Below, in pieces: positions 17,899 through 32,982 of a stretch of DNA of 57,234 bases. The DNA lies in assembly GCF_000739635.1 (NCBI RefSeq), contig NZ_BATQ01000146.1, positions 1 to 57,234 on the forward strand, in the 5' to 3' direction. Within the stretch, counting starts at the first letter, position 1; the number at the start of each line of letters is the position of its first letter. The translations under genes were made by a program, and so were the position numbers. The notes below the pieces were generated by a model. The model did not search any database. It saw only the letters and a list, made by a program, of their open reading frames with translations, and had not been told where the DNA came from. The DNA is from Verrucomicrobium sp. BvORR034 (lineage in GTDB: Bacteria > Verrucomicrobiota > Verrucomicrobiia > Verrucomicrobiales > Verrucomicrobiaceae).

Positions 17899-17942
17899 TG
17901 AAAAGTCTCCGCCACCGGAGCGACGACCTACAGCCTCCCTGA

Positions 17943-18137
17943 GCCGACTAAAGTCGGTACTCCAACCCTCTCCGTTCCCGCCAGCAGGGTTGGAGCACCG
18001 CGTTTACGCGGTCAGGATACCTCCACGCAGCGCCCCCTCCCTGTCTACAACTTACCTCGAACCCCAAACTGACGCACTGACGCACTGACGCACTGACGCA
18101 CTGACGCACTGACGCACTGACGCACTGACGCACTGAC
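17943..18137. repeat. Mosaic dispersed repeat, copy C with eight GACGCACT units
   Basis: The same order as copy A: hairpin CCGACT-AA-AGTCGG, TACTCCAACCCTCTCCGTTC, CCAGCAGGGTTGGAG, CCGCGTTTACGCGG, then TTACCTCGAACCCCAAACT and eight perfect GACGCACT units at 18071-18134. It lies between the NTF2/DUF4241 gene and the zinc-ribbon gene and fills most of that gap. Unlike copy A, its array end is not next to a stop codon. Confidence 0.92.
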
Positions 18138-24622: not shown

Positions 24623-26425
24623 TCAGCTTCGGACGGTGACGATGGAGCCCGCGGAAGAACGTGCCGGACCGGACCGCCAGCCCCAGGCCCCCAGCAGACA
24701 ACCCAGCACCAACAGCACCCACAGGCCCGTCAATGGGTCGGCCTCCGTTTGTTTGAGCGCCGCCTCCCAGCGCCGCGCATCCACCGTATCCAAAGGGGCG
24801 GCCTCCCGGAAATCGGCCTCGCGGGTGTCTGCAAAGTGGATCGCTCCCCGGATCATCGTCTTCCCCCCCTCCTCCAGGTCAAAGAAGCCGACTCCATCCG
24901 GGACGCGCCCAGTGAACTCCGCGCGAGTACCATCATCGCGACGCAGCGTGAGCGCAGCCGGGGCGGCCCCAGAAGCGGCCAGCGGCGCTGGCACCTCGAG
25001 ATTCTGCCCCGCCTCAAAGTTACCCGCCCAAGGTTCCCGCTTGGCCTTGCGAAGCTGCTCCACATACCGATGCAACATCACGAGCAAGGCCGGGTGCCGG
25101 GCGGCATTCGACTGGGAGAGGTCCCAGGCCAGGAGCAGGCGGCGCACCGGGGTGCCGGTGGCAGTGAGGTCGTGCCGGATCAGCGCGAGCGGGCGGCCGC
25201 CCTTCCAGAGCAAGGGTTCGTCCCGTTCCGTCAGGCCCAGCTCCATGGGACGAGGAGTCAACAGGCTCATCCAGTTGAGGTCGCGGGTGAGCGGATGGTC
25301 CTCTGCCACGGTGTAGCTGCCGTCCAGCGGCAGGTTCTCGCCTCCGCCTCCCAGAATCTGCACCGCATCCGTATTCACAGGATTGCCCAGTTCCGCCACG
25401 GTCAGGTCCGGGTTCTGCGTGACGGGGGCCACCGCCACGCCGTCCAGGGCTTGAAGCATCTTCTTCATCACCCCGCCAGGGGCCGAGCTTGCCTCAAACG
25501 CAAGATTCACCACCCGTTCCACGGGGCGCTGCAAGGGCATGCGGTCATCCCAGGTGAACTGGTCTCCGCTCAGCACCAGCGTGGCCCGATCCACGCCCGG
25601 CGGCAGCTCGCCGCCCAGTTCTCCGGTCTGCCCAGGGGCTAGAGTGAGGCTGGAACGCTTCGGTTCCGTACTGCCCTCCTGCTCAACCCACCACTGGCGG
25701 GTCTGCGGTGCTTTGCCATAGTTGCGCACCAGCACCGACCACTTCACGCCAGAGTCGGGCACTCCCGGCTTGACCAGAGTCGTCTCCACCCCGGCCCAAC
25801 CAACATTCTCGATCTCCTCTCCCGCAGAGAGCACCGCCACGCCGGCAGCCACCTCCGCTTTGCGGTCCGTCACAAAGATGACGATGCCGTGTTCTTTCAC
25901 CAAACCCGAGCCCACTTGCAGGGCTTCATCCGGCCGATGGGTGCCGAGCACGGGCTTCCAGCCGTCATACGCCTTTAGCACTCCGGCCAGCTCCGACCCG
26001 GTGTAAAGGGTGGGCTTGCGTACATCCGTCTCCAGCAGGTGCCATTCCGTCCGCGCTGCCGCCCGGCTCCAGCCCCGCAGTTTTTCTGCCAGCAGCTCAC
26101 GCGTTGGCTCCTTGAACGCCTCCATGGAGACGGAGCTGTCCAGCACCACCACCACGGTCTGGCGGGAGTCTTCCTTGATCCAGCGGGGCTCCACCAGCAG
26201 CCAGGTCAGCAAGAGGGCCGCCAGGAGCTGGAGCCAGAGAGGCACTGAGTTCCGCAGCCGCTCAAACTTCGCCCCACCCGTGCTCTCCGGCCTCACTCTT
26301 TCCAGGAGGAAGAGCGTGCTCACCCGCAGCCGCCGGGAACGCTCCTGGAGGAAATGGATGACCAACACAGCCGGGATGGCCAGGAGGGCCCAGAGGCCGG
26401 CGGGATTGGCGAGGAGCAGTCGCAT
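24623..26425 (-). CDS. BatA-like membrane VWA-domain protein
   Basis: 600 residues. The N-terminus MRLLLANPAGLWALLAIPAV with the next residues (FLQERSRRLRVSTLFLLERV) is the BatA N-terminal domain (PF07584 style), with a second helix at LWLQLLAALLLTWLLVEP. The VWA strand VVVVLDSSVSMEAF carries the DxSxS metal site near residue 93. A C-terminal helix (GLWVLLVLGCLLGAWGW) anchors the end. It is paired with the 854-residue VWA protein, as in Bat operons, where such proteins act with MoxR ATPases and DUF58 proteins. It lies 45 bases after the lipoprotein gene upstream. Confidence 0.87.
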   Translation of the reverse strand: MRLLLANPAGLWALLAIPAVLVIHFLQERSRRLRVSTLFLLERVRPESTGGAKFERLRNSVPLWLQLLAALLLTWLLVEPRWIKEDSRQTVVVVLDSSVSMEAFKEPTRELLAEKLRGWSRAAARTEWHLLETDVRKPTLYTGSELAGVLKAYDGWKPVLGTHRPDEALQVGSGLVKEHGIVIFVTDRKAEVAAGVAVLSAGEEIENVGWAGVETTLVKPGVPDSGVKWSVLVRNYGKAPQTRQWWVEQEGSTEPKRSSLTLAPGQTGELGGELPPGVDRATLVLSGDQFTWDDRMPLQRPVERVVNLAFEASSAPGGVMKKMLQALDGVAVAPVTQNPDLTVAELGNPVNTDAVQILGGGGENLPLDGSYTVAEDHPLTRDLNWMSLLTPRPMELGLTERDEPLLWKGGRPLALIRHDLTATGTPVRRLLLAWDLSQSNAARHPALLVMLHRYVEQLRKAKREPWAGNFEAGQNLEVPAPLAASGAAPAALTLRRDDGTRAEFTGRVPDGVGFFDLEEGGKTMIRGAIHFADTREADFREAAPLDTVDARRWEAALKQTEADPLTGLWVLLVLGCLLGAWGWRSGPARSSAGSIVTVRS

Positions 26426-26470
26426 GGGGGGCGGATCAGCAGTCGGTCACGAGCGTCACATCACATCACA

Positions 26471-26878
26471 TCAGGGCTTCACGGTCGGGGTCTTGTCCAG
26501 GATCTTGTCCAGCGCGGCGCGGGTGGCGTCGTCGCTGCCTTTTGTTTTCACCTCGAACTCCACCTCCTTGCTCTCGCCAGGTACCGGTCCTGTGCCTTCA
26601 TCCGTGCCTGCGGCACCCAGCTTGGCGGGGGCATTGGGAGCCGCTTCTTTCAGACGGCTGCCGCCTTCCGCAGGCTTTTCCTTCTCGCTGCCGGCTTCCT
26701 TGGTGTCTTCACCGGTGACCATGCGGTTGCGGGCCGCGCCCGCGCCAGTTGTACAACTGGGGCCGTCCTCAGCGGGTACGACAGCGCCGGTGCTGTCGCC
26801 TTGGGTTCCCGTTTTCTTGTTGCAGGAGGACAGTGCAGCGGTCAGGAGGACGGCTGCGGTGAAGTGGATCAGTTTCAT
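26471..26878 (-). CDS. Small lipoprotein within the MoxR/VWA operon
   Basis: 135 residues, signal peptide MKLIHFTAAVLLTAALSSC with lipobox LSSC and Cys at residue 19. The mature part is low complexity, rich in Gly, Glu, Lys and Thr (GTQGDSTGAVV, GSEKEKPAEGGS), with a more ordered end (DATRAALDKILDKTPTVK). No domain recognised. It sits between the DUF58 gene (112-bp gap) and the BatA-like gene (45-bp gap), which argues that it is part of that membrane complex and not a chance frame. Confidence 0.68.
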   Translation of the reverse strand: MKLIHFTAAVLLTAALSSCNKKTGTQGDSTGAVVPAEDGPSCTTGAGAARNRMVTGEDTKEAGSEKEKPAEGGSRLKEAAPNAPAKLGAAGTDEGTGPVPGESKEVEFEVKTKGSDDATRAALDKILDKTPTVKP

Positions 26879-26990
26879 GTGGATGAGAAAGGTGGGATGA
26901 GGATTCAGAGAAGGTTACGATGGAGCCGATGCGGGCGGTGCCAGAGGCGGAGACGATCAGGTTTCATTCAACATCAACTCCGCGTCCGGG

Positions 26991-27911
26991 TCAGCCCATT
27001 TCCACCACGCCTGCACTCAGGGCCTCCGCCCGGAGAGCAACCAGGAAGGGGGGCTCCGCCGCCACCCTGGCCAGACCCGCCCCGCGGCGCACGGCCTGTT
27101 CTCGCCAGAGGGAGAAATGCATCTGATACGCCCGGAGGTAGCGAACGAGGATGTCTTTGTCCACCCGTCGCTTGTCGCGCAGGGCCGACTCGCACTCTTC
27201 GAACTCGATGTTGCCGTCCCAGGCCGGATGAGCCTCCTCAATGCAAAAGGGGGCAAACACCAGCGCCCTCCCCTTCCCATGCAGCAGGGCGTTCATCATC
27301 CGCTCCGGCGGAGTCTCGCTCAGCAGATCGCTCACCAGCACCCGTAGAGATCCAGCGCGGAGCGGGCTCCGCTCCAACAGCCCCGCGACATCGGCTTTGG
27401 TATTGGGGTTCGTTGAAACTTCGCCACGGGGCCAGTCATGCGCCAGCGCCCGCTCGATCGGCACATCCACCGCATCCCGGCCCAGTGCGTGAATCCGCAC
27501 CGCCGCGCCAAGACGCAGGGCGCTTTCGAGACAGAAATAGACCACCTCCCAGGTGCGCAGCGCCTTGGCAGGCGTGAGGAACATGGAGGGACTCAGATCC
27601 AGCAGCAGATCCACCTTGGGCGTCACCTCCTGGCGGTAGAGCTTCATCGTGTAATTCCCCGTGCGCGCATAGGCCTGCCAGTTGATGTGGCGGGGATCAT
27701 CTCCCGGGATGTAGGGACGCTGGTCCTGGAAGTCGATGGAGCTGCCAGTCCCCTGCCCCAACACGCTGCCCGCCACACCGCTCCAGTGGCCGCTGCGCAA
27801 GGGGAGCCGGGCCACGGCCGCCGCGCCTTTCATCCGCTGGTGCACGACTGCCAGTGCCGAGGGCTGGAAGTCCGCAGTGTGGAGGTCCATCTGAATCGCT
27901 GCCGTGCTCAT
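26991..27911 (-). CDS. DUF58 domain-containing protein
   Basis: 306 residues. The DUF58 signature is clear: DFQDQRPYIPGDDPRHINWQ, then YARTGNYTMKLY, around residues 65-95, with DLLLDLSPSMF (VWA-like strand with DxSxS) near residue 110. No membrane helix is predicted, so it is a cytosolic partner. DUF58 proteins are regularly encoded beside MoxR AAA+ ATPases and VWA proteins, as here. Its ATG overlaps the stop of the permease gene by four bases, indicating translational coupling with the ABC transporter. Confidence 0.9.
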   Translation of the reverse strand: MSTAAIQMDLHTADFQPSALAVVHQRMKGAAAVARLPLRSGHWSGVAGSVLGQGTGSSIDFQDQRPYIPGDDPRHINWQAYARTGNYTMKLYRQEVTPKVDLLLDLSPSMFLTPAKALRTWEVVYFCLESALRLGAAVRIHALGRDAVDVPIERALAHDWPRGEVSTNPNTKADVAGLLERSPLRAGSLRVLVSDLLSETPPERMMNALLHGKGRALVFAPFCIEEAHPAWDGNIEFEECESALRDKRRVDKDILVRYLRAYQMHFSLWREQAVRRGAGLARVAAEPPFLVALRAEALSAGVVEMG

Positions 27912-29413
27912 GAGGATGGCTGAGTGGCTGGGGTGACGCGGTCCTCACCATCAGGCCGCGATTGATCTTCCAGGCGTGAGATGGCGCGAAACTCCTTGAT
28001 CATGCGGAAGCCCAAATAGCCCACTAACACGACCACCACCGCGAGCGTCACCTTGAAATAGAAGTCCAGGGGAGTGCCGTCTGTGCCCCCCTCCATGAAC
28101 GCGAACAGAGCACTTGAGGGGAATGGAGCCAACCAACGGTAGGCCGCCTCCTTGGTCACGCCAGGAGTGCCCGCCACAATGGAGGCAATGGCAAACAGCA
28201 GACCGAAAAGAGCCTGAATGAGGACATACAGCCAGATGGGCTGGCGTACGCGCGGAAACAGAAGCAACACCGGCAACGGCGCGATGGCCGAGGCATAGAT
28301 GAGCACAAAGGTGACGATCAGCTCCACCTGCTTCATATCAGTCAGCCCGGCGCCGGAACGCACCGAAATCTGATAGACTGCGTTGAACTGGGCGATGTAC
28401 AAGATGCCCGTGAAGAGCAGTGCAGTCGCCCAACCGGGATAGAGCACCCGACCCGCAATCCGGCCCAGATAACCCCGCCGTGCCCAAGATGAATAGAGGC
28501 TGGGCAGTCGAACGGTGTGTTCACACAGGGCCTCCAGCACGATCCAGCCCCAGACGGGCGAGCACAGCAGAAACCACAAGCCAGACACATCATCATCCGT
28601 CGTGTAGGCCAGCACATTGGCCACGACCGCCATGCCGAGGGCCGTCAACCGCTTGCGCGCGGCATGGTTCTCGGAAACCGGGGCAATCCGGGTGGCAGCG
28701 ATCTCCAGCAGCAGGTACACATAGAGCCCCACCACCGTGGCAATCAACCACACCGAAGGCGAGGCACCTGACATGCCCATGAATCCAAGGCGGTTGGCAA
28801 ACAGGCTGCTGATGCCGACGGAAAATATAAAGGGCAGAAACAGCACCAGGGCAATGATACGAAACACCATGGGTGCACTGGAGAGCGCCACGGCGAAGGC
28901 CGTGAACACAAACGAAATGGCCACCATGATCGCGATGACCGTCAGATCATCCACCACATTGACCTGACCGAAGAAGTAACGCAGCACCGCATAAGGCAGC
29001 ACCGCCGCCACCAGCAACAGAGACTGCGCCACCAGCGCCACCCACTTGCCCAGCACAATGCGGAAGGCGCTCATCCGGGTGAGTTGCACAAGGTCCAGCG
29101 TATTCGCCTTCACCTCATCACTCACCGCCATCAGCCCCCGAGCTGGCATGAGCACCAGCAGAGGAATCCAGACAAAGGCCCAGAAGAATCCGTCGAAGCC
29201 CACCATCGCCCCTCGCGAAGCCCCATTGGCCAGCGCCAGCAACTGCATGCCCACCAGCAACGTCATGACCACCTGCACCAGAATGAAGATGGAAATAAAC
29301 GCCTTCGTCTTCAGCCCCTGCCGGAGTTCTTTGACCAAGATGGGACTGAGCCAATCGGAAAAGTCTGGCGGCGGGAGGGTGTATAGAGGGGCTGTTGTGG
29401 CAGGTGAGGACAT
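27908..29413 (-). CDS. ABC transporter permease (ABC-2 type membrane protein)
   Basis: 501 residues with many hydrophobic segments, roughly ten helices: AFISIFILVQVVMTLLVGM near residue 40, AFVWIPLLVLMPARGLM, WVALVAQSLLLVAAVLPYAV, LTVIAIMVAISFVFTAFAVAL and IIALVLFLPFIFSVGIS, and a last one near residue 460. The layout is that of the fused membrane half of an ABC-2 exporter. Its ATPase is almost certainly the gene at 30090, but a four-helix-bundle gene and tandem repeats lie between the two. It overlaps the DUF58 gene by four bases. What is exported is unknown. Confidence 0.85.
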   Translation of the reverse strand: MSSPATTAPLYTLPPPDFSDWLSPILVKELRQGLKTKAFISIFILVQVVMTLLVGMQLLALANGASRGAMVGFDGFFWAFVWIPLLVLMPARGLMAVSDEVKANTLDLVQLTRMSAFRIVLGKWVALVAQSLLLVAAVLPYAVLRYFFGQVNVVDDLTVIAIMVAISFVFTAFAVALSSAPMVFRIIALVLFLPFIFSVGISSLFANRLGFMGMSGASPSVWLIATVVGLYVYLLLEIAATRIAPVSENHAARKRLTALGMAVVANVLAYTTDDDVSGLWFLLCSPVWGWIVLEALCEHTVRLPSLYSSWARRGYLGRIAGRVLYPGWATALLFTGILYIAQFNAVYQISVRSGAGLTDMKQVELIVTFVLIYASAIAPLPVLLLFPRVRQPIWLYVLIQALFGLLFAIASIVAGTPGVTKEAAYRWLAPFPSSALFAFMEGGTDGTPLDFYFKVTLAVVVVLVGYLGFRMIKEFRAISRLEDQSRPDGEDRVTPATQPSS

Positions 29414-29433
29414 GGGGAGTCAGGGGGCGGGAG

Positions 29434-29470
29434 TTCAGTGGGCAGTGGGCAGTTGCCAGTGCGTCAGTAT
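29434..29470. repeat. Short heptamer/octamer repeat on the 3' side of the four-helix-bundle gene
   Basis: CAGTGGGCAGTGGGCAGT is followed by TGCCAGTGCGTCAGT. The first part is two units of CAGTGGG, the exact reverse complement of the unit in the array at 29981-30094; the second contains AGTGCGTC, the reverse complement of GACGCACT. The four-helix-bundle gene is therefore flanked by inversely oriented arrays, and heptamer and octamer families meet here. Confidence 0.85.
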
Positions 29471-29538
29471 CCGCAGCTTGGAAGTGCTTCGAGAAATTGG
29501 CGGCTGCTTGAGATCACGATTGGAAAGAGGCGAAGGGG

Positions 29539-29964
29539 TTAGGTCGGAGGTGCAATGCAGAACCTCTGATGATTGGCAATCATGGAACCAAGGATGCGCC
29601 CCAATTCAGAAGCCTTGTTGACAAGGGTTTCGCACGTTTCTTTGGAAAGGTATTTGCACGAGTAGGCCGTGCGCAGCCAGTGGAGGGTCTCTTGCAACTC
29701 GCCATCGGCATCCGTGAGCTTGCTTAGAAAATGGGCTTCGTACCGCCTCTTGGACCAGGCCTCGGCAATGTTGGCTCCAACAGCCCGTGAGCTTCTTCGC
29801 ACTTGGTCAGTGAGCGAATACCGCTCCTCCTTGGGGAACGATTGGGACAGCTTGAACACTGCCTGCTGAAACAAGAAGGCCTGACGATACAGCTCCAGAT
29901 CCCGATAGGACCGAGCCACTTTCAATATCTTCTTTGAACTATTGACTTCGTCTGCACTCATCAT
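29539..29964 (-). CDS. Four-helix-bundle protein, S23/IVP family (23S rRNA intervening sequence type)
   Basis: 141 residues from ATG 29962-29964; ATG 29959-29961 is equally possible. The open frame runs 43 codons further upstream, but that part is only translated tandem repeat (SGQWAVG units), so it is rejected as N-terminus. Family features are [14 protein letters not shown] at the start, [20 protein letters not shown] in the central helices and a [14 protein letters not shown] helix. The fold is shared with the Avd accessory protein of diversity-generating retroelements; no reverse transcriptase is in this window. It interrupts an ABC ATPase/permease gene pair and is flanked by inversely oriented heptamer arrays. 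The molecular function of the family is unsettled; nucleic-acid binding is inferred. Confidence 0.87.
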
Positions 29965-29980
29965 TTTCAACGGTAAAACT

Positions 29981-30094
29981 GCCCACTGCCCACTGCCCAC
30001 TGCCCACTGCCCACTGCCCACTGCCCACTGCCCACTGCCCACTGCCCACTGCCCACTGCCCACTGACTCACTGCCCACTGCCCACTGACTCACT
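29981..30094. repeat. Tandem heptamer array (14 GCCCACT, 2 GACTCACT) overlapping an ABC ATPase stop codon
   Basis: Twelve perfect GCCCACT units (29981-30064), one GACTCACT (30065-30072), two GCCCACT and a final GACTCACT (30087-30094). The final unit contains the TGA stop codon and the last base of the terminal Gln codon of the ATPase gene. On the coding strand the sequence reads TGA-GTCAGTGGGC. It forms the 5' side of the four-helix-bundle gene and is open in that gene's frame as a seven-residue repeat, SGQWAVG. Confidence 0.96.
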
Positions 30095-31130
30095 GTTTCT
30101 TCAGCATATCCACGAACGCATCCTCCAGCCGCCGGACCTCGCGGTGGAACTCCACGACGGGGATGCCCTCGTTGACCATTTTCTTCAGGCCTGCGGAGAG
30201 GAGGTGCAGGTCATCACTGGCGAGGGCGAGGCGGGCACCATCGCGGCGTTGCTCGACCAGACTCCAGCCGGGGTTCATACCAGCCCAGAGGTGGAGTTCC
30301 TCCACCTTGCCGAGCACGGTGATGTCCACCACCAGTTGGGAGTCGCCGTTGCTGGCACGACCATTGCCACGACGGAGCGCCTCGGCAGCACCGTGATACA
30401 CCAGCTTGCCACCGTCGATGAACAACAGCGTGTCGCACATCTCCCCGAGTTCACTGAGGATGTGACTGCTGATGAAGAGCGTCTTGCCGCGCTGAGCCAG
30501 GAGACGGACGAGATTCTTGAACTCCAGGCGCGCTTTGGGATCCAGACCCGCCGCCGGTTCGTCCAGGATCATGAAATCTGGATCGGGCAGCAGCATGCGG
30601 CCGAAACACAGACGCTGGCCCATGCCCTTGCTGAGCTTGTTCATGGGGCGGTCCGCCAGCACCAGCAGATCGGCAAAGTCCATGACCTCCTCCACGCGAG
30701 CGCGGCGCTCGGCCCTCTTGAAACCATAGGCGCGGGCGAAGAAGTCAAGGTACTCATACACTGTCATGCACGAGTAGGTGCCGTAGTGGTCAGGCATCCA
30801 GCCGATGAGACGTCGCACCTTCTCCGGCCGGTCCATCACATTCACGCCAGCCACCCGGACCATGCCGCTGGTGGGCGAGTCCAGTGTGGCCATGATGCGC
30901 ATGGTCGTGGTCTTGCCCGCCCCGTTGGCGCCGATGAACCCCACCACCTGCCCGCGATGGATGTCAAAGTTGAGATCCTTTACGGCATGCACATTGTCGA
31001 ACACCCGGTGCAGATGCCGCACCTCTACCAGGGTCTCCGGCAGGGGTGGTGGAGGCGGTGCCGAACGAACGGCCGCTGGGGCAGTCTGCGGCGGTTCGAC
31101 AGCGGGGGCGGCAGCAGTGGGAGTTTCCAT
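30090..31130 (-). CDS. ABC transporter ATP-binding protein
   Basis: 346 residues. A proline/alanine-rich N-terminal tail of about 30 residues precedes the nucleotide-binding domain: Walker A GANGAGKTTT, signature LSKGMGQRL, Walker B FMILDEPAAGLDP and the switch His in SSHILSEL. The order and spacing are those of ABC-2/GldA-like exporters, with C-terminal extra sequence of about 90 residues. Its partner permease is at 27908. Its stop codon lies inside the heptamer array. It is preceded by the 593-residue membrane protein gene, 79 bases away, on the same strand. Confidence 0.93.
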   Translation of the reverse strand: METPTAAAPAVEPPQTAPAAVRSAPPPPPLPETLVEVRHLHRVFDNVHAVKDLNFDIHRGQVVGFIGANGAGKTTTMRIMATLDSPTSGMVRVAGVNVMDRPEKVRRLIGWMPDHYGTYSCMTVYEYLDFFARAYGFKRAERRARVEEVMDFADLLVLADRPMNKLSKGMGQRLCFGRMLLPDPDFMILDEPAAGLDPKARLEFKNLVRLLAQRGKTLFISSHILSELGEMCDTLLFIDGGKLVYHGAAEALRRGNGRASNGDSQLVVDITVLGKVEELHLWAGMNPGWSLVEQRRDGARLALASDDLHLLSAGLKKMVNEGIPVVEFHREVRRLEDAFVDMLKKQ

Positions 31131-31209
31131 GGTGGCGGAACAAACTTGGGTTGAATGGAGTCGGCGTGGCGGTGGTTCAATGAGGCAACAGCATCGCCCG
31201 ACGGGTGAG

Positions 31210-32982
31210 TTAGAGCTTCTTCACGTAGTTGCCCAGGATGATCAGGCGGTCGTCGTTCCAGCGGATGGAGCCGAGCGTGGGCACGGCCAGCTTTTCAGCT
31301 TCAGCCGCCTCAGCGTAGATCCGGCCTGGTAGTCCCTTGGCGGGCCCCAGCACCTGCTGAGCGAGCGGTCCGCCATCAAACTCCACTTTCTCCCGAATCC
31401 AGCCTCGAAAGTCCTGCTCGGTGGCGGCACGCAGCGGCTTCTTTTCGCCGGTGCCGAGATCATCCGCCACCCAGAAGCGCGGCCCCTCCTCCACAATGAA
31501 GATCTTCTTCAAGGGCACCTCCAGACTGGACAACACCACCGGCGTGGCATCGCCCACCGCTGGCTGAAACTCGACCGCAGCCCGTGTCGGCCGCACCGTC
31601 TGGATGAGCTGCCCCTGCACTGACCGGCTGGCGTACCAGTCCCCCCAACGGGATTCTCCATTGTCGGCAAAAGTACCATCACGGTTCGAGGTGCCAAAAT
31701 TAGGCACACGCTCGTCATCAATGTCCAGGGGCATCATCCACACCGGCTCAGTAACCGGGAAGCTGCTGCCCATGAGCACGCCCGTGCGGGCCACCTGCTC
31801 CTGCAGCACGGTCATGCGCTTCTGGTCCGGCATGAGCGTGGCCAGGATCAATCGAGATCCCGATCCTCCCGTACCATCCTGCAAAACCATGAGCGCGACC
31901 AGCAACGCACTGCCCGCCAGAGCTATGGCCGGCGTCGTCCAGAACAGCCGGTGTCGCCGTCCCCCACCCGCCAGCCAGAACAGGTTCACAGGACCGATGA
32001 GCACCCCAAACGTGAGGATGAAGGTGAAAATCAACCCGGACTTCAGCGTGAGTTTGCCCACCTTCTCCTTCAGGTTCCACTTTTGATCGTAGTCGTCCAG
32101 CCGATTCCAGCTTCCGAGGTCGCCCCCGCTCTTCACCCGTTTTGTCACCTCATCCAGCGGGAAGGTGTTGCCGTCCCAGGTCAGCACCTCCAGCCGGCCC
32201 GCCCCGTGCCGCATCTTACCCGGGCGCTCCTCCGGGCCATTCACCATGGGGAACAGCTCCTTCACGGAATCTCCTCCAGAACCGGCGTTCAAAACATAGA
32301 GCCGGCCTCCGAGCGAGACCCAGTCCAGCACTGCTCCTTTGGTCTTCGCATCCATCCCCTGCCATTCCCCGGCATCCAGCCAGAGATGCGCCAGCCCCGT
32401 GTAGCCACGCCAGTCATCCGGCGCATCCTTCGCATCCACCTCACTCCCGATGAGCTCATTGTTAGAGCTAGAACTCCCGGTGCCGCCGTTGATCTTGCCG
32501 CGCAGTCCGCTCCATCCTTTGGTGGAGAGCTTCCTTCCCATCGCGATGAACTCCGTACTGTTGCTGCGGTAGGCCGAACCCTGGCTGTGCAGGTTCCCCG
32601 CCTGGGGGCGGTTGATGCCCGGCCCCTCCACCGAGATGCCGAGGTTGCCGTAATAGTAGGCGTTGTCCGTCTGCGGTGTTACCGGGGCATACACCATGAG
32701 ACGCCCGGAGGACTCTGCTTCCACCGTGAGCTTCGCCTCGGTCGAGAGGCCGCCTCCATACAGATTGCCCGCCCGCAATGTCCAGGTGTGGGGCCGGGAG
32801 TCGCCGTTGCGAATGCGCAACTCCAGCGGAACCAGCCCGTACTGTGGACACGTCTCCAGCCAGGATTTCACCTCTACATGGAAGTTGGCCCCGGTCTCCA
32901 CTCCGGGCGAGTAGGATGTCCCGCCGTACAGTGGCAAAAACAGGCCGCCTGCCAGCAGTGAACACAGAAGGATGCGGATCAT
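31210..32982 (-). CDS. Secreted/membrane protein of the MoxR operon, unknown function
   Basis: About 590 residues from ATG 32982; an ATG three codons earlier is also possible. A signal peptide (MIRILLCSLLAGGLFLPLYG) is followed by an extracytoplasmic sheet-rich region of about 320 residues (VPLELRIRNGDSRPHTWTL, SGRLMVYAPVTPQ). Two membrane helices (SGLIFTFILTFGVLIGPVNL and TPAIALAGSALLVALMVL) lie near residues 330-390, and a further sheet-rich portion ends the chain. I do not recognise a named family. Its place between the MoxR and ABC ATPase genes implies that it belongs to the same envelope complex. Confidence 0.75.
   Translation of the reverse strand: MIRILLCSLLAGGLFLPLYGGTSYSPGVETGANFHVEVKSWLETCPQYGLVPLELRIRNGDSRPHTWTLRAGNLYGGGLSTEAKLTVEAESSGRLMVYAPVTPQTDNAYYYGNLGISVEGPGINRPQAGNLHSQGSAYRSNSTEFIAMGRKLSTKGWSGLRGKINGGTGSSSSNNELIGSEVDAKDAPDDWRGYTGLAHLWLDAGEWQGMDAKTKGAVLDWVSLGGRLYVLNAGSGGDSVKELFPMVNGPEERPGKMRHGAGRLEVLTWDGNTFPLDEVTKRVKSGGDLGSWNRLDDYDQKWNLKEKVGKLTLKSGLIFTFILTFGVLIGPVNLFWLAGGGRRHRLFWTTPAIALAGSALLVALMVLQDGTGGSGSRLILATLMPDQKRMTVLQEQVARTGVLMGSSFPVTEPVWMMPLDIDDERVPNFGTSNRDGTFADNGESRWGDWYASRSVQGQLIQTVRPTRAAVEFQPAVGDATPVVLSSLEVPLKKIFIVEEGPRFWVADDLGTGEKKPLRAATEQDFRGWIREKVEFDGGPLAQQVLGPAKGLPGRIYAEAAEAEKLAVPTLGSIRWNDDRLIILGNYVKKL

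Follow-up and report, generated by a model that had tools for sequence, protein, structure and literature searches.

S23, or four-helix-bundle, genes have no settled function. For the 23S rRNA intervening sequence (IVS) of Coxiella, the available portion of the source describes an S23 open reading frame (ORF), 28-bp terminal inverted repeats, excision by RNase III and GACAGAT heptamers placed before the ORF (PMC4990558). S23-type proteins are found in rRNA insertions of CPR bacteria too, according to the available text of PMC11270868. Heptamer repeats are described, in the accessible parts of two further papers, for Xanthomonas (GGGAATC), Nostoc (GGGGA(C/T)T) and Beggiatoaceae (TAACTGA) (PMC4692102, PMC4679880). 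Like the arrays studied here, they are 7 nt long, intergenic and near ORF ends, and some form inverted pairs; those parts describe no link to S23, whereas the arms studied here are matched pairs built on a unit particular to each S23 gene. Avd, the accessory protein of diversity-generating retroelements, shares its fold with S23. In REP/RAYT or IS/MITE pairs, a gene lies between inverted repeats and gene-less copies are found elsewhere. Intergenic heptamer repeats and rRNA intervening sequences are already known; in the open-licence literature, as far as its text was available, we found no statement that S23 genes in general lie at operon junctions between inverted heptamers particular to each gene.

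The locus compared here with these systems belongs to a 57,234-nt contig of Verrucomicrobium sp. BvORR034 (NZ_BATQ01000146.1), referred to below as the window. The minus strand carries, in this order, an ABC transporter ATPase gene (30090..31130; PF00005, E 2.7e-27, with top NCBIfam matches of DrrA/GldA type under their cut-offs), an S23 (23S_rRNA_IVP four-helix-bundle) gene of 141 aa (29539..29964) and an ABC permease gene of 501 aa (27908..29413; weak GldF match, E 2.8e-4, below cut-off). The permease gene is present in 45 of 57 genomes. Upstream of S23 lies an arm of 116 nt (29978..30093, minus strand), delimited from the sequence and by TRF (period 7, 15.6 copies, score 204). It consists of 14 GGGCAGT-type and two GAGTCAGT-type units, which read on the plus strand as 14 GCCCACT and two GACTCACT units up to 30093. 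The ATPase gene ends in AAA CAG TGA and the first array unit overlaps its stop codon; the 16 units follow one another from this CAGTGA up to the start of S23. The downstream arm (29436..29469, minus strand, ACTGACGCACTGGCAACTGCCCACTGCCCACTG) is inverse and shorter, 34 nt. On the plus strand it comprises 2.6 copies of CAGTGGG at 29436-29453, then CAGTTGC and CAGTGCGT to 29469; on the minus strand, the S23 stop codon is followed by ACTGACGC, ACTGGCA, ACTGCCC, ACTGCCC and ACTG, shortly before the permease gene. A listed ORF with a GTG start (to 30093) runs through the array. We rejected the resulting N-terminal extension of S23 as genuine protein, since it merely translates the array and overlaps the ATPase stop. 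The start is more likely the ATG at 29964, the array then being non-coding. An earlier sequence-only reading of this DNA gave coordinates that all hold; it had also noted the overlap with the ATPase end and had taken the gene and its inverse arrays as one unit, and this unit does take up the junction between ATPase and permease, starting at the stop codon.

The S23 gene is a clear member of its family. It matches PF05635 with E 4.1e-30 and 104.6 bits (cut-off 33.8) over profile positions 1-105 of 106, and TIGR02436 (four helix bundle protein) with E 7.4e-30 and 103.4 bits (cut-off 24), that is, over its full length and above curated cut-offs. The bAvd model also matches (E 7.9e-12), but the Avd equivalog NF033474 gives only 46.8 bits against a cut-off of 80, which separates the window protein from Avd proper, and no reverse transcriptase was noticed at the junction. 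PADLOC gave no family. S23/four-helix-bundle genes are present in 220 of 288 genomes of a phylum sample. The protein is maintained under purifying selection, since dN/dS is about 0.01-0.12 (7 of 15 pairs, those with usable dS); the Coxiella IVS ORF, in contrast, is described as decaying.

The genome as a whole comprises 8.58 Mb in 200 contigs. Of its seven PF05635 matches, the one in the window alone lies within 1.5 kb of an exact 7- or 8-mer array, and CAGTGGG arrays (up to 2 mismatches in 21) are found at 19 further places, so that the exact array alone could be a coincidence. This test is misleadingly negative because most arms are degenerate. One further S23 gene of this genome (L001) is preceded by AAAAGTG and followed by CACTTTT, another (L002) has GAAGACA on one side and TGTCTTC on the other, and a third (L004) is flanked by GGTAATTCAGTAATTCG and its inverse. 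With degenerate inverted 7-mers around several of the other S23 genes, the arrangement is not a coincidence. The window carries other repeats as well. At 1075-1332 and at 17936-18137, both intergenic and without S23, related REP-like sequences (CTGAGCCGACTAAAGTCGGTACTCCAAC...) are followed by an octamer array of ACTGACGC; positions 1-107 belong to a perfect GACGCACC octamer array of 13.4 copies, where the contig probably begins at an assembly break.

The framing of S23 genes by inverted arms was then scored over samples. The 200 nt before the S23 domain were aligned to the reverse complement of the 200 nt past the stop codon, with a threshold of ≥18; genes short of 200 nt on either side or with N were left out (8 of 124, 8 of 144 and 2 of 31). 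A first sample combined the genome itself, its relatives and 80 genome_contigs loci (the best 80 of 544 relatives in a pattern scan), whose titles name Bacteroidetes, Chloroflexi, Verrucomicrobia, Lentisphaerae, Cyanobacteria, Deltaproteobacteria and others; a second was drawn from the 288 genomes of the phylum. The relatives' loci and those of the second sample are best-scoring matches and non-random, and none was picked by its flanks. In the first sample, the mean score was 22.4 for 116 S23 genes, compared to 12.3 for swapped pairs and 12.6 for 287 same-locus controls. The threshold was reached by 90 of the 116 genes, by 15 of the 287 controls and by 8.8% of swapped pairs. With 20 loci added, 107 of 136 S23 genes reach it (29 stay below), and in the second sample 17 of 29 (12 below) against 12 of 184 matched controls, which had at least 60 nt of non-coding DNA on each side. 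The enrichment of flanking inverted 7-mer arrays at S23 genes, which the sequence-only reading had proposed to search for, is thus strong. Identity at lag 7 is 0.348 in upstream and 0.362 in downstream flanks (controls 0.283 and 0.285), and in the first sample only lags 7 and 14, of all lags, exceed controls. These comparisons show that framing by inverted arms is general for the sampled S23 genes, and that arms are element-specific and matched. On plasmids, 34 records match S23. Nine of the 15 examined, all listed as Cyanobacteriota, reach 18; the rate among swapped pairs is 40%, since a AGCAGGGG-type unit is common to the arms of these elements. In seven of these 15 (L390, L392 and L396-L400), an annotated integrase/recombinase gene lies directly 3′ of S23.

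The two arms span the stretch from the upstream stop to the next start. In elements scoring ≥18, some of which have no identified neighbour, the outer end of the upstream arm lies at a median of -4 nt from the upstream stop codon (quartiles -22/+6, n=89), and that of the downstream arm at +3 from the next start (quartiles -30/+18, n=83). The upstream neighbour shares the strand of S23 in 89 of 101 cases and the downstream one in 83 of 101; over all adjacent pairs, 534 of 758 are co-oriented. Repeats vary between genes, yet within an element the arms correspond, in many cases collinearly. When the 7-mers of one arm were put in a different order, the score over 81 elements (arms of 24-80 nt with at least three different blocks) dropped from 23.8 to 16.2, with p<0.05 in 53 of them. 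Compared with the average for downstream arms that other species have at that site, an element's own downstream arm is the better fit in 34 of 46 comparisons (p 1.3e-4); against the best arm from another species it is better in 22 of 46, with 5 ties and 19 worse. At one site, a palindrome is present in both arms of one locus (L205) and absent from those of the other two species (L005, L200). Mismatches between arms are of G-U type in 257 cases and of A-C type in 279 (44 vs 45 elements). This gives no sign of selection for RNA pairing between arms, in a test of unproven power, its tRNA-stem positive control (15 tRNAs, 8 vs 4) being too small. Equal mismatch classes fit arms kept alike at the DNA level, and such arms could still act as an RNA stem.

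We read the element as the equivalent, at an operon junction, of the 23S rRNA intervening sequence: an inverted-repeat stem whose loop carries the S23 gene. To this reading we give an even chance. It is favoured because of the IVS precedent and because the arms pair in the predicted RNA fold of the window element (z -2.91; none of 20 shuffled sequences was as stable), so that complementary stem-forming ends are present as in an IVS. Coxiella and Leptospira IVSs likewise hold an S23-family ORF within complementary stem-forming ends, the heptamers upstream of the Coxiella ORF recall the upstream arm, and ORF-less IVSs recall the arms-only hairpins described below. In contrast to an IVS, which sits in an rRNA helix, the element lies between protein genes (those for the ABC ATPase and permease), and its arms are gene-specific 7/8-mer arrays. 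Location in a 23S or 16S rRNA helix was looked for and is lacking, Rfam giving no match in window positions 26000-32000; the element is therefore IVS-like and not an IVS member. By analogy, the arms would pair in the operon mRNA to form a stem with S23 in the loop. This stem may be cut (by RNase III in the rRNA case), which would separate the cistrons and free the S23 message. One arm would be the template from which the other is rewritten in the DNA, through template switching or inverted-repeat conversion, so that the two stay alike, and slippage may generate the 7-nt period. S23, probably a pentamer, could bind the stem or its RNA. Against this reading stand the short downstream arm of the window element (34 nt beside 116 nt upstream), the balanced mismatch classes, the limited advantage of own arms over the best arm from another species, the occurrence of similar arrays and hairpins without S23, S23-free genomes included, and the S23 genes that stay under the threshold, about a fifth of the first sample and 12 of 29 in the second.

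Elements at the same site were compared across species; operon names (ilvB-ilvN, metK-ahcY, gspE-gspF, nuoI-nuoJ, livG-livF etc.) are our reading of translated ends. At the ABC junction, S23 was found in 3 of 20 relative regions scanned. Two congeners have the same S23 lineage there, and so does a member of another genus, with a permease of 50% identity. The arms are GGGCAGT, as in the window, in one congener (G003), GCGTCAGT in the other (G002) and GAATCAGT in the other genus (G007), each with its inverse opposite. This distant relative thus has arrays beside its S23 gene; an S23 gene at this operon position without them would have spoken against the sequence-only reading. An empty site in relatives would have supported that reading. 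Of the 20 regions, 10 (L100-L103, L105, L106, L108-L110 and L114) have a second permease of about 240 aa between ATPase and long permease (window slot 29414-30089), which S23-bearing genomes do not have, and a simple insertion into an empty site does not describe this junction. At the ilvB-ilvN, gspE-gspF and epimerase junctions, three sibling species have different arm pairs. Over 17 same-site comparisons, S23 identity at fourfold sites was 0.72-0.86 in four, 0.57 in one and 0.19-0.45 in 12, whereas usable flanking genes gave 0.59-0.88 (the downstream gene of site A, 28% identical, being excluded); three metK comparisons were intermediate, with protein identity of 0.81-0.85. From these sequences we infer that the whole cassette was replaced at the same site. 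In many relatives (L240, L241, L244 and others), a different gene stands in place of S23 between ilvB and ilvN; by our own reading, it looks like a DNA methyltransferase gene in genus g8 and like one of toxin-antitoxin type in G008.

Elements are also lost. Two junctions that carry the element in G002 and G003 lack it in the genome studied here, one retaining a solo downstream array and the other an upstream arm with the first S23 codons. The ilvB-ilvN junction is clean in two sisters of occupied species (G004 and G011, paired with G014 and G018) and also in G009, with gaps of 80, 47 and 52 nt and no arms. Among nine genomes compared at a Flavobacterium junction, five have arms and S23, three an arms-only hairpin directly past the stop codon and one neither. 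Inspected by eye, 12 of 20 arm matches in one Flavobacterium genome had both arms and none had S23, and at least 8 of 20 in the genus and family of the window were arms-only hairpins. Together, the relics, the hairpins left with arms alone, the clean empty sites and the divergent alleles suggest that elements were lost and replaced repeatedly while their sites stayed fixed. Hairpins that persist where S23 is absent would equally be expected if the arms were a cis-acting mRNA element (for stability, translation coupling or termination) and S23 an autoregulator binding its own stem, with no mobility involved. Arms abutting stop and start codons and purifying selection on S23 fit such a regulatory role, as do the published heptamers, which are intergenic, lie near ORF ends and form about 70 inverted pairs in each Xanthomonas genome in the available text of PMC4692102. 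We nevertheless regard this explanation as unlikely: the unit differs between elements and a conserved binding site is not evident, the mismatches carry no G-U signature, and sister species have clean empty sites.

According to the sequence-only reading, a small unit, mobile or repeat-generating, had landed at the stop codon of the ATPase gene and would be mobilised in trans. Several observations are in its favour: a unit structure with inverted ends, presence or absence between sister species at ilvB-ilvN and in Flavobacterium, the low S23 fourfold identity in 12 of 17 comparisons, as if cassettes had been swapped, and the integrase/recombinase genes next to seven plasmid S23 genes. A tree of 49 S23 proteins, however, contains supported clades by operon site across genera: ilv (7), metK (4), liv (4), gsp (4), ABC (4), epimerase (3), nuo (2) and others, the xyl group being weak (83/19). 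It shows that S23 proteins group by operon site and not by genome, each site retaining its own lineage. The dispersal to new sites within a genome that would characterise a transposon was not seen among the loci of this tree, and the element encodes no transposase or recombinase. It resembles REP/RAYT and IS/MITE pairs in its inverted-repeat-flanked gene and gene-less copies, and differs from them in having no transposase and in S23 lineages that remain at their site. No clear target duplication was identified at junctions compared by eye. The origin of the G003 ilv allele from an outside donor is unproven by the tree (AU test for foreign origin, p-AU 0.34). With the ABC junction common to two genera and clades arranged by site, a recently landed mobile unit is not supported, and we judge the proposal as a whole improbable. 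Generation of repeats in trans fared no better: strict 7-mer arrays number 4 in 340 kb from six S23-free genomes and 2 in 400 kb from seven S23-rich ones, with no relation to S23, which is unneeded for making arrays since they exist in S23-free genomes. One congener (G003; L315, L316) has very long GGAGTGAT / ATCACTCC octamer arrays, with many copies in this one genome. The earlier interpretation is overall partly supported. That slippage-born heptamers simply accumulate in intergenic DNA, with S23 among them by chance, would suit their rank as the commonest long simple repeats in many bacteria (available text of PMC4692102 and PMC4679880), the 19 other CAGTGGG places and the arrays of S23-free genomes, but is hardly credible for flanks that far exceed swapped pairs and matched controls and for arms that are inverse in orientation and collinear.

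The reading as an operon-junction counterpart of the IVS can be extended, tentatively and with less confidence. S23 cassettes may be widespread and so far unrecognised site-faithful elements of operon junctions, their arms rewritten pairwise by DNA copying and the cassettes lost and re-acquired, in a homing-like manner, at the same stop/start junction; the rRNA IVS would then be a special case that was seen first. If most S23 genes are hairpin-framed junction cassettes, their function could be tested by editing the arms and the gene one at a time. The excess of heptamers long noted in bacteria would, in part, gain a partner gene, and rRNA intervening sequences, so far puzzling, a general context. 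Arms that are matched and yet change fast would offer a natural system for how inverted repeats stay alike.
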